Origin: a virus
Strand: one strand, 5' to 3'
Length of the DNA stretch: 24,270 nt
IMG/VR virus record: IMGVR_UViG_3300003873_000086
Span: 1-24,270 of that record
Shown here: piece by piece, positions 11,893 through 14,870 of the stretch
How positions within the stretch are numbered: the stretch's first letter is position 1
How the letters are laid out: each line of letters opens with the position of its first letter
Program-made: the position numbers and the translations under genes
Notes under the pieces: generated by a model
What the model was told of the DNA's origin: nothing
Databases searched by the model: none
What the model saw: the letters and a program-made list of their open reading frames with translations, nothing else

Positions 11893-12248
11893 GCCAGCCT
11901 CACTTGCGCAAAATAGACAACAGGAGTGACATCATCCGGCTTGATCGTCTTAATCTTGATAATAGTCCAGCTCTGGCCGTCAATTACCGGTTTATCTTCA
12001 AGGCTTGGTATTTGTTCATTGCTCAATACCAGTTCACGATCCCCTGCCATTATTCGCGTACCGTCCACAACAGAATCAGGATATGGCTTAATCAATCCGG
12101 TCGTAGTCACGCTCGCATCAGTTCCGGCAATCAACAGACCGGAAACAGCATTGTACTTTTCACCAGTGGTTCGTGTCAGCGTGATTGATTTGCCAAATTC
12201 TGTGAGTAGCCCTTTAGCTGTCGCGGCCATGTCTGCATAAAAACTCAT
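11889..12248 (-). CDS. head-closure / head-tail joining protein
   Basis: A 119-aa protein with an N-terminal amphipathic helix (MSFYADMAATAKGLLTEFG) followed by a compact beta barrel: SITLTRTTGEKYN, an alternating middle, a DRELVLSNEQIPSLEDKP stretch, and a final YFAQVRLA strand. This helix-plus-barrel pattern is that of head-closure proteins (Hc1/gpFII-like) that seal the adaptor ring. It lies between adaptor and neck genes with ATGA overlaps. The call is by pattern and synteny. Confidence 0.72.
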   Translation of the reverse strand: MSFYADMAATAKGLLTEFGKSITLTRTTGEKYNAVSGLLIAGTDASVTTTGLIKPYPDSVVDGTRIMAGDRELVLSNEQIPSLEDKPVIDGQSWTIIKIKTIKPDDVTPVVYFAQVRLA

Positions 12249-12772
12249 GCTCGACTCAAATCAACAGAGAATAGACCAGACCGATTCAATAACGTAGCCA
12301 GTAATGCATCACCTGTGGACGTGTGTGTCATTTTCTGATCTGATCCTGTCATTCCCTGTTTCCGAGGAACTGCGAATTGAACATCAACAGCGCCTCCAAC
12401 ACTCTTTCTGCTTGCGATCAAGTTCGGATTGACAGCCTTGTTCCATAAGTCGATTCCGTTGTGAATATCCAGTGCATAAGCCTGCTGAGCTAGAATGACC
12501 TGCCGTGGTATCTCGTCGCTGTTCCAGTACCAACCATTTATACGCACGCGCCAACGCGGGAACGCCATAGGGTTATTTCTGTGAGTCCTGACTCCCTGCA
12601 AATTAGGCTCATGTTGATCAATAAACGATGCGGCCTGAATCAACTCCTCATCAGCCGTTGCATCACTGGCTATCGTTACGCCAATGCTTGCAGCGTATGC
12701 GATATAATCAGCACGCGATAAATATGAATTAGCACCGGCAACAATAGCCCCAGTCTCTACGACAATAGCCAC
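12245..12772 (-). CDS. head-tail adaptor protein (DnaT-like fold annotation)
   Basis: A 175-aa protein starting at GTG (12772) right beside the stop of the 35-aa gene. The opening VVETGAIVAGANSYLSRADYIAYAASIG and the helical core (EELIQAASFIDQ; QVILAQQAYALDIHNG) match the phage adaptor group often annotated as DnaT-like ssDNA-binding. In phages it is the first ring beneath the portal (adaptor Ad1), so the DnaT label should not be read as a replication role. The GTG start has a GAAGG about eight bases upstream and is probably coupled to the preceding gene. Confidence 0.78.
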   Translation of the reverse strand: MAIVVETGAIVAGANSYLSRADYIAYAASIGVTIASDATADEELIQAASFIDQHEPNLQGVRTHRNNPMAFPRWRVRINGWYWNSDEIPRQVILAQQAYALDIHNGIDLWNKAVNPNLIASRKSVGGAVDVQFAVPRKQGMTGSDQKMTHTSTGDALLATLLNRSGLFSVDLSRA

Positions 12773-12947: not shown

Positions 12948-14093
12948 TTAACCTAGCAACAGCGCCGAGTGACGGGGCGCGATCATTTTCATACCCCAAG
13001 CCAATGCAACCTCATAGCGAACCTTGCGATAGCCCTTATACATGGCGAACTCGAAGGTCAGTCCGGAACGCGGGTCGGTTACCATCTGAACATCGGCTGC
13101 CAAATCGCCTTCCTGTGGTCGTGCAGGTGCGCGGGTAGCAAGCACAATCGCTGATCGGTTGAATACCATGTTACGAGCGGCAGCGCCGACGATTGTCATA
13201 GCGACGTTATTAGCAAGTGCCTGACGTAAGCCAGGTTCCTGCAATACGATAGAGCCGGGAGCAGCAACACCAGTTGCAACAACATACTGATTCGTATCAC
13301 CTGCGAAGGTAACAATGTCACCAGCCAATACAGTTCCTGCGCCAGTATCCAGCGCAATCGAAGTATCACCAACAGCATATCCACCAACCAGATTCGACAG
13401 ATAACCTGCGCCTGTACCGACTGCCGGAGTTGCAATCTGTGCAGACTGACGCAAATCCAAGCCAGCAAGAGGAAGCAATACACCCTGACGCTGCAATGAA
13501 TCAGTGCCGGTAATGTTTGCTTGTGCCTGCTTACCCTGAATGGTAGCGCCTGCAGTGGTGTTCATGATAATATGGTTATCGAACTCAGGGGCGCCGTTAT
13601 CAACGATTATCTTCTTGGCGAATGATGCATCAGAGAAATCACCAGCAGTTGCAAACGGTGTAACGCCAGCCGTGCCATATGCGCGGGACGTCTGAGCGTG
13701 TAATGCAGCCAGATCAGATTCAACATCATTGACCAAGCGACGGATACGCTGCGCGATTTTCTGAGCGCGTACACCAAGATAACCGGGCCCGGTAGCAAGT
13801 CCTTTCTGATCTTCGCCATTGAATCCAAAGCTATATGCTTTCGAATTAGAAATGGTCAGAGTAGTCGAGCCGGAAACTTCACCAACTGGATCAGGGACAA
13901 CCATTGCAGAACTGATAGTAATGCCAGCCGGTGCATCCGGTTCCACATCGACAACGATGTTTTGATTTAATTCAGCACGAGCGGAACTCGCGGATAGTGT
14001 GACTGCGGGGATCATGCCAGTGACTTCACGACTCACTACGTTAAGTGATTCATAAATGTCCGGCAGGATGGCAGTGATTGTATTTTCAGCCAT
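12948..14093 (-). CDS. major capsid protein, P22 coat (gp5) family
   Basis: A 381-aa protein with features of the P22-type HK97-fold coat: an opening helix (ILPDIYESLNVVSREVTGMIPAV), the KAYSFGFNGEDQKGL segment near 85-99, a long spine helix (VRAQKIAQRIRRLVNDVESDLAALHA, about 108-133), and a C-terminal TFEFAMYKGYRKVRYEVALAWGMKM domain. Residues about 240-303 form a beta module (AVGDTSI...GDIVTFAGDTNQYVV...) shared with the tail protein at 3961-4743. It is shorter than P22 gp5 (430 aa). It follows a scaffold gene, as expected for this family. Its own promoter lies upstream, and its AAAGGAGG site is held in a hairpin, so translation may be controlled. Confidence 0.9.
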   Translation of the reverse strand: MAENTITAILPDIYESLNVVSREVTGMIPAVTLSASSARAELNQNIVVDVEPDAPAGITISSAMVVPDPVGEVSGSTTLTISNSKAYSFGFNGEDQKGLATGPGYLGVRAQKIAQRIRRLVNDVESDLAALHAQTSRAYGTAGVTPFATAGDFSDASFAKKIIVDNGAPEFDNHIIMNTTAGATIQGKQAQANITGTDSLQRQGVLLPLAGLDLRQSAQIATPAVGTGAGYLSNLVGGYAVGDTSIALDTGAGTVLAGDIVTFAGDTNQYVVATGVAAPGSIVLQEPGLRQALANNVAMTIVGAAARNMVFNRSAIVLATRAPARPQEGDLAADVQMVTDPRSGLTFEFAMYKGYRKVRYEVALAWGMKMIAPRHSALLLG

Positions 14094-14096
14094 TGT

Positions 14097-14120
14097 GGCC
14101 TCCTTTGATTTGCGGAGGCC
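14097..14120 (-). promoter_or_regulatory. hairpin sequestering the coat ribosome-binding site
   Basis: mRNA GGCCTCC-(10-base loop)-GGAGGCC forms a perfect seven-pair GC-rich stem. The 3' arm contains the GGAGG of the coat ribosome-binding site, with the ATG four bases past the stem. Folding would block 30S binding. The pairing is seen directly; regulation is inferred. Confidence 0.72.
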
Positions 14121-14130
14121 GGAAAGAACA

Positions 14131-14161
14131 ACGCCCTCCTTGATTTAACAAGTAAGGGCGT
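14131..14161 (-). promoter_or_regulatory. upstream leader hairpin with a decoy Shine-Dalgarno
   Basis: mRNA ACGCCCT-ta-CTTG-ttaaat-CAAG-g-AGGGCGT: eleven pairs with a small internal loop. Its 3' side contains AAATCAAGGAGG, nearly identical to AAATCAAAGGAGG at the coat ribosome-binding site. The following sequence TGTTCTTTCC is only weakly U-rich, so a terminator is possible but not typical. Confidence 0.65.
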
Positions 14162-14212
14162 AACCCAGAGGAATTATCAGCCGTAAGCCAGTAATTCGCC
14201 TATGTAGCGCGC

Positions 14213-14242
14213 ATTATACGCACAATTTCTATGCGGCGTCAA
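14213..14242 (-). promoter_or_regulatory. sigma70-type promoter for the coat gene
   Basis: TTGACG (14242-14237), an 18-base spacer and a perfect TATAAT (14218-14213). The -35 lies in the last codons of the scaffold gene. A GCGCGC stretch follows the -10. Transcription should start near 14206, giving a leader of about 113 bases with two hairpins before the coat ATG. This would let the coat be made in excess over scaffold and portal. Confidence 0.72.
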
Positions 14243-14870
14243 CCACTTTTCCACCATCTTTGAAGTATGCCATCTTTTCGACTGCGCCAAGATCATCAAA
14301 TTGAGTGCGGGTGATTGTCTTACTCTTTCCACCATCGCCTTTCTTTCCAACATCTCCGGATCCGGATGCTTTCGAGCCGACAAGTAGTGGCGCAAAGGAT
14401 ACATTGCTTTCGATTTCTGCCTTTAGATCAGCTAATGACAAAGCTGATGGTTTTCCATCCGCACCCAATACCCTGACAATCGGATGACCTTCTTTCACAT
14501 CAACAGATAGACGCCGTTCGATGTGCGGTAGCAACACGTCAGCACTACCCGGCAATGCCAATTCAGAAGCAAGCTTATGCGCTTCCGTTCCGACTGTCAT
14601 GCGCTTTACCATGTTCTGATATTCAGACAAGGCCTCGTCGCGTGCTTTTGTTTCTGATTCAAGTTTCGCCTGCCATGATGCTTCCAGTGCGTCCACATCG
14701 CCAGATTTCTTTGCAGCGTCTGCTGCTGCTGTTTCGGCTTTCTTCCGTTCATCCTTTTCAGCTTGGATGAGTTCTCTGTTTTTCTGGGTAAGTTTCTCGA
14801 CTGATGTTTGCAGTGCTGCAAATTCAGCGGGATCGATTGCTGGTACTTCGTCTTTCTTCTCTTCTGGCAT
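14229..14870 (-). CDS. capsid scaffolding protein
   Basis: A 213-aa highly charged protein between minor head and coat genes. Residues 12-80 are a Lys/Glu/Ala coiled coil (LTQKNRELIQAEKDERKKAE and on). A middle region has ELALPGSADVLLPHIERRL, and a Gly/Ser/Lys linker near 165-185 precedes a short C-terminal helix (TQFDDLGAVEKMAYFKDGGK), the usual coat-binding end. This layout is typical of phage scaffolds, which template procapsid assembly and then leave. A strong AAGGAGG precedes the ATG by five bases. Confidence 0.85.
   Translation of the reverse strand: MPEEKKDEVPAIDPAEFAALQTSVEKLTQKNRELIQAEKDERKKAETAAADAAKKSGDVDALEASWQAKLESETKARDEALSEYQNMVKRMTVGTEAHKLASELALPGSADVLLPHIERRLSVDVKEGHPIVRVLGADGKPSALSLADLKAEIESNVSFAPLLVGSKASGSGDVGKKGDGGKSKTITRTQFDDLGAVEKMAYFKDGGKVVDAA

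Follow-up and report, generated by a model that had tools for sequence, protein, structure and literature searches.

The coat gene of the phage analyzed here is preceded by a leader RNA that, by the comparative evidence below, is a conserved two-state switch with exchange pairing. Our main reading, suggested by comparing hundreds of related viruses and assigned a probability of roughly 0.6, is that the phage's scaffolding protein reads the loops of two hairpins in this leader, P1 and P2, and in doing so turns coat production on. How tailed phages keep these two proteins in balance has long been asked.

A sigma70-like promoter and five-stranded leader precede the coat gene

The window, the whole stretch of DNA analyzed, is a 24,270-nt IMG/VR record. 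Its minus strand encodes the structural operon of a tailed phage, with terminase, portal, head morphogenesis, scaffold, coat, adaptor and tape measure. All features below lie on this strand. The major coat protein gene (12948-14093; phrog_283, P22_CoatProtein) starts with an ATG at 14093, and the scaffolding protein gene (14229-14870; phrog_206) encodes the candidate loop reader. For the gene at 12245-12772, Pfam gives DnaT_2 and PHROGs gives head-tail adaptor Ad1; the operon position favors the adaptor identity.

A sigma70-like promoter (TTGACG-18-TATAAT; 14213-14242) matches the consensus at 11 of 12 positions, with its -35 box within the last scaffold codons. This putative coat promoter overlaps the scaffold stop codon and predicts a transcription start near 14206; most of 26 relatives have a site with at least 9 of 12 matches whose -10 box ends 110-132 nt before the coat ATG. 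The -35 box (14242-14237) is built from the scaffold's conserved C-terminal Val-Asp codons (GTTGAC), and protein and promoter constraints therefore overlap here.

The leader downstream of this promoter is about 113-115 nt long and comprises five strands, a to e. Hairpin P1 (14171-14197), seen in the folds, has an upper stem UGGCU-UAC-GGCUG with the triloop UAC, and this stem shows compensatory changes among relatives. Hairpin P2 (a:b; GGGU-UAC-GCCC; 14156-14166), supported by the strand-swap test described below and by its pair types, has the competing strand GGGU (14166-14163) as its 5' arm, while its 3' arm doubles as the 5' arm of the terminator-like hairpin 1 (b:c; ACGCCCTTACTTG-TTAAAT-CAAGGAGGGCGT; 14131-14161), which rests on the strand-swap test and on the U-tracts of relatives. 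The degenerate U-tract UGUUCUUU (14123-14130; six T in 10) follows b:c. Strand c (14131-14142) carries a GGAGG (14139-14135) that can potentially pair with the CCUCC (14118-14114) of strand d, and hairpin 2 (d:e; GGCCTCC...GGAGGCC; 14097-14120) contains and sequesters the coat Shine-Dalgarno sequence (SD). A first-pass annotation of this DNA had placed hairpins 1 and 2, and the complementarity between them, exactly here. Its two stems are only half of the element; the promoter, P1, the GGGU strand and the terminator role in relatives were absent from it. The region folds with a minimum free energy of -42.6 kcal/mol, and none of 200 dinucleotide shuffles folds as well (z -3.5).

In the mechanism that we propose, transcription of the coat gene would start at its own promoter and yield a leader with two mutually exclusive folds. 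In the OFF state, b:c would act as an intrinsic terminator and d:e would hide the SD, so that leaky transcripts would be silent as well. In the ON state, a would hold b in P2, the terminator would be prevented, c would capture d, and the SD in strand e would be free. P1 and P2, with their matching triloops, would form a tandem operator to which the scaffolding protein binds, probably as a dimer. Whenever free scaffold is present, this binding would stabilize P2 and turn on coat synthesis. We infer scaffold binding, activation by binding and dimer binding, while comparison among phages supports the promoter, P1, P2, the terminator, the SD hairpin, the c:d exchange and the loop matching, as well as the association of the leader with scaffold lineage and with scaffold residue 28.

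Competing helices are maintained among relatives

As relatives we took phages with a related coat from IMG/VR. Their scaffold-coat gaps fall into two groups, a majority of 10-30 nt and a minority of 80-210 nt. RNAalifold on a MAFFT alignment of the leaders misaligned the SD hairpin, and we therefore turned to strand-swap tests, in which the duplex energy of a strand with its own partner is compared with that obtained with partners of other leaders (20,000 permutations).

Across 24 leaders, own partners outperformed swapped ones for a:b (z -5.7), b:c (z -11.7), d:e (z -9.0) and c:d (z -6.2), values to be read knowing that the strands were chosen by eye from folds, a bias that favors b:c and d:e, not c:d. 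None of the 20,000 permutations was as good as the observed pairing for any of the four, and the control pairs gave +0.9 (a:d), 0.0 (b:e), +0.5 (bt:e) and -1.9 (c:e). Fifteen diverse leaders (mean identity 0.47, maximum 0.59) yielded z scores of -5.0 for a:b, -8.6 for b:c, -7.5 for d:e and -5.45 for c:d (0/20,000 for the last), with controls near 0. As own partners beat swapped ones, the c:d cross-pairing exceeds chance, and both this exchange and the competing a:b hairpin are maintained. This supports the partner exchange that the first-pass annotation had suggested; both of its stems are kept across related phages, and the d:e helix over the SD, which it had assigned to sequestration, is retained through compensatory change. 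The SD hairpin is rebuilt from differing sequences, among them GCCTCC/GGAGGC, GTTTGCTC/GAGTAAAC in L384, TGTAAGCCT/AGGCTTACA in L578 and TTCCTCA/TGAGGAA in L467. In all 24 leaders tested, P2 and the terminator share one strand, the 3' arm of the former being the 5' arm of the latter, and the mutually consistent states are a:b with c:d and b:c with d:e. Separately, L174 and L196 carry a GCCTCC...GGAGGC hairpin over the SD of a non-coat gene, just before a MANTISFEDLKHD protein.

With a mean b:c energy of -19.8 kcal/mol and a following U-run of 4-8 T in 10 in relatives, hairpin 1 has the properties of an intrinsic terminator; the window's own tract is weaker. The device had been proposed earlier as a translational switch. 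Its SD exchange is supported, but translation alone does not describe it: termination is probably controlled too, because U-runs (up to 8 U in 10) come after hairpin 1 in relatives and because this hairpin competes with P2.

In the window, the OFF fold (-41.8 kcal/mol) is favored by 11 kcal/mol over the forced ON fold (-30.7 kcal/mol), and with only a:b forced, d:e still beats c:d. Given this stability, ON would need a binder or a particular co-transcriptional folding order. The strong preference for OFF would also suit a static arrangement in which the promoter, a leaky terminator and the SD hairpin fix the coat:scaffold ratio with no regulator, and terminators are common between phage genes. 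Such a device, however, would have no use for matched loops or for covariation of the competing helices a:b and c:d, and we consider it improbable.

Matching triloops in two types of leader

We termed type A those leaders that are built like the window's, with a terminator-like hairpin, a U-run after it and an SD hairpin (L001-L005, L046, L079, L089, L191, L274, L340, L341, L349, L380, L384, L423, L424, L502, L510, L577-L579, L611, L613 and others). Their SD hairpin ends 1-7 nt upstream of the ATG; P2 occurs in nearly all of them, and a recognizable P1 and promoter in most. The P2 loop is a triloop in 24 of 25 leaders, the exception being AGCA in L001. Of 18 type A leaders, 17 have P1 and P2 loops that end in the same two bases, where 9.3 would be expected (s.d. 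1.5). The window has UAC/UAC; here, as in L002, the P1 loop was read by eye from folds.

Type B leaders (L508, L529, L551, L557, L568, L585, L543, L597 and others) have three triloop hairpins and no terminator, and their SD, CCGGAGU, is complementary to ACUCCGG, the 5' arm of the second hairpin. Here, 23 of 25 hairpin pairs have matching loops (expected 8.3) on differing stems. Type B is a translation-only variant of the coat leader, and by the logic of the folds a triloop hairpin held closed would leave the SD free in both types alike.

Several other arrangements were noted. The scaffold-coat gap of L006 and L010, whose scaffolds belong to the type A lineage, contains P1/P2-like hairpins, lacks terminator and SD hairpin, and is possibly a reduced leader. 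The coat leader of L393 has a triloop hairpin, UCUAC-AGU-GUAGA, with eight U directly 3', as if one hairpin did both jobs, operator and terminator. Tandem hairpins with GGAU tetraloops (e.g. GAGCC-GGAU-GGCUC) lie between scaffold and coat in several viral contigs and in cultured phages such as DMCA, CGphi29, 611R4 and Klebsiella 5 LV-2017 (coat leaders L319, L322, L323, L328, L329, L336, L566, L600, L609, L623 and L626). Their readable scaffolds have Asn or Gln near position 28, and the GGA in the loops may be likened to CsrA sites.

The leader follows the scaffold, and its hairpins recur at scaffold starts

The 22 phages closest to the window by scaffold all have gaps above 80 nt and nearly all have type A leaders, while their coats are only 43-83% identical to the window's; leaderless phages have coats up to 65% identical and scaffolds scoring below 160 bits. 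By these comparisons, the presence of the leader tracks scaffold lineage, not coat lineage. L467/L474, L374 and L540 are exceptions, with similar leaders despite unrelated scaffolds, and co-inheritance is in part linkage because the scaffold gene adjoins the leader.

We defined the operator as tandem hairpins whose loops end in the same two bases and whose centers lie 18-30 nt apart, placed before a phrog_206 scaffold gene or its coat gene; the window shows all of these features. Two other scan patterns were discarded: looking for only the SD hairpin or only P2 returned mainly chance hits, and a terminator-plus-triloop descriptor was unspecific (483 matches in 8.3 Mb, 19 adjoining a coat gene).

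Among cultured phages, 367 records contain the central scaffold domain (residues 62-163), and those inspected have other capsid genes. Eleven of 17 cultured phages with this domain carry, just 5' of the scaffold gene, two triloop hairpins that agree in the last two loop bases and of which the second lies at the SD: UGG/AGG in TheodorHerzl and eiAU, AGU/GGU in ART, GGU/UGU in phiP4-7, GGU/AGU in KL1, Kakheti25, Bhz58, KP1 and RcTitan, AGA/GGA in phiES15 and UAG/UAG/AAG in KW1E. As controls, the tandem element was found at 0 of 161 ORF starts and in 1.1% of random windows, and shuffles gave 0.03 on average. Among P22-coat relatives it precedes the scaffold in 37 of 133 leaderless phages and in none of the 25 type A or 7 type B phages, and it occupies the coat leader in 15 of 27 type A and 9 of 13 type B phages (2.2% of random 140-nt windows). 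Tandem pairs at scaffold starts share the last two bases in 57% of leaderless and 55% of cultured phages and in 17% of random windows. TheodorHerzl (L661), Kakheti25 (L663) and KW1E (L656) likely carry putative scaffold autoregulation operators upstream of scaffold; these phages grow on laboratory hosts and are well suited to experiments.

On the scaffold's own SD, scaffold binding should repress scaffold synthesis. P22 scaffolding protein represses its own synthesis post-transcriptionally. Both points lend some weight to the same two-state leader working with the opposite sign, where scaffold is a repressor or attenuation enhancer and free scaffold lowers coat synthesis by feedback: the second hairpin encloses the SD before scaffold genes, where binding should repress. 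In the coat leader, however, a stabilized P2 should activate because the terminator is then shut out and c can expose the SD, and type B predicts the same sign. We therefore regard repression of coat as unlikely, although it is the strongest of the alternatives.

A scaffold residue tracks loop identity

In 77 non-redundant scaffolds with a loop assignment, column permutation tests singled out position 28 (Thr in the window; codon at 14787-14789), which lies in the motif S-V/I-x-x-L-28-x-K-N-R-E-L. Loops ending in G go with Lys28 in 14 of 17 cases, usually as Gly-Leu-Lys, NGC loops with Glu28 in 16 of 18, and the NAC loops of the window and L002 with Thr28; loops ending in GU follow no clear rule at this residue. 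Fisher tests of the association, which ignore relatedness, gave 4e-6 and 1e-9. When loops were permuted within scaffold clusters, column 28 ranked first of 177 at the 50% threshold (z 6.1), second at 40% and first at 35% (z 9.5), with 0 of 2000 permutations reaching its score at each threshold; columns 37 and 42 score as well. Phages beyond the test set follow the pattern too, with GLK in L585 (GGG) and L333 (UAG), GLE in L597 (UGC/UGU) and LT in L003 (CAC/AAC). L001, the nearest scaffold relative (77%), has Glu28 and AGCA loops, and L002, at 58-62% identity, shares both Thr28 and AC loops with the window; the match is therefore not mere descent. Nearest neighbors by scaffold predicted the loop in 49 of 66 cases and those by coat in 40 of 66 (chance 19). 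In an AlphaFold model of the scaffold, residue 28 lies within a long N-terminal helix; the model has no known RNA-binding fold, and a Foldseek search of the PDB gave no match.

Of the triggers first considered, protein, ribosomes or temperature, these data favor a protein, because the tandem loops match within a phage and track one scaffold residue; ribosomes and temperature are less favored. The reader could be another phage or host protein that travels with the scaffold gene, and since the relatives' records are genome fragments, other linked genes are conceivable. Yet within lineages the loop is tracked by one scaffold column, and phages that differ in their coats carry the hairpins on the scaffold SD, so that we hold such a reader to be rather unlikely. 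More doubtful still is an action of P1-P2 on RNA polymerase directly, as by HK022 put RNA, with no phage protein. It would agree with two stem-loops just 3' of a promoter and 5' of a terminator, but the loops vary among phages, match within each and track the scaffold residue, and the same hairpins occur on the scaffold SD where there is no terminator. Judged from sequence, the loop-residue association argues against such protein-free action.

Returning to scaffold as the reader, we consider it slightly better than an even bet that the phrog_206 (GP20) scaffolds are a family of RNA-binding regulators with a changeable triloop code. Their operator would move between the scaffold ribosome-binding site, for autorepression, and the coat leader, for a coupled termination/translation switch that matches coat synthesis to free scaffold. 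In this code, Lys28 would read a final G, Glu28 would read NGC and Thr28 would read NAC. If true, a structural assembly protein would also regulate genes by binding RNA through a recognition code able to evolve, and could be used as an orthogonal gene-control part. The analysis names a candidate protein and residue for loop reading and a testable RNA element that many phages, E. coli K-12 phages among them, carry before coat or scaffold.

Comparison with known systems

The window had no match in Rfam 15 at E<=1, nor did the leaders of 15 relatives, apart from two weak matches (E ~0.8) in L598, and a search of E. coli genomes for the leader DNA found none. A literature search, incomplete in coverage, returned no earlier description of the design and nothing relevant on P22 scaffold autoregulation.

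The layout resembles that of ANTAR antitermination by dual hairpins (EutV, NasR, AmiR), two small hairpins with matching loop features of which the second overlaps the 5' arm of a terminator, as P2 does here. ANTAR protein dimers stabilize these dual hairpins (PMC3369931). ANTAR loops are hexaloops with A1 and G4, whereas window-type leaders have triloops (24 of 25; AGCA in L001); moreover, a phage scaffold is the proposed reader here, and an SD exchange is added. HK022 put RNA, two stem-loops that bind the beta-prime zinc domain, exerts its effect on RNA polymerase and needs no dedicated protein (PMC9378689). Like P1 and P2, these stem-loops lie just 3' of a promoter, and put suppresses termination, as is predicted here; in contrast, P2 shares an arm with the terminator and the loops co-vary with a protein residue.

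In P22, too, the scaffold is a post-transcriptional controller, the role proposed here, but the present scaffolds belong to phrog_206 and the window's operator lies on the coat leader. We know of no comparable RNA operator for P22 scaffold autoregulation. The MS2 coat protein is a virion assembly protein that reads an RNA hairpin loop over a ribosome-binding site; it does so at a single hairpin of an RNA phage, with neither terminator nor strand exchange. In ribosomal-protein leaders, such as the S10 leader with L4, a structural protein controls termination and translation of its own operon through leader RNA. The control proposed here is of this kind, but would be exerted by a capsid scaffold, in a phage structural operon and through a changeable loop code.
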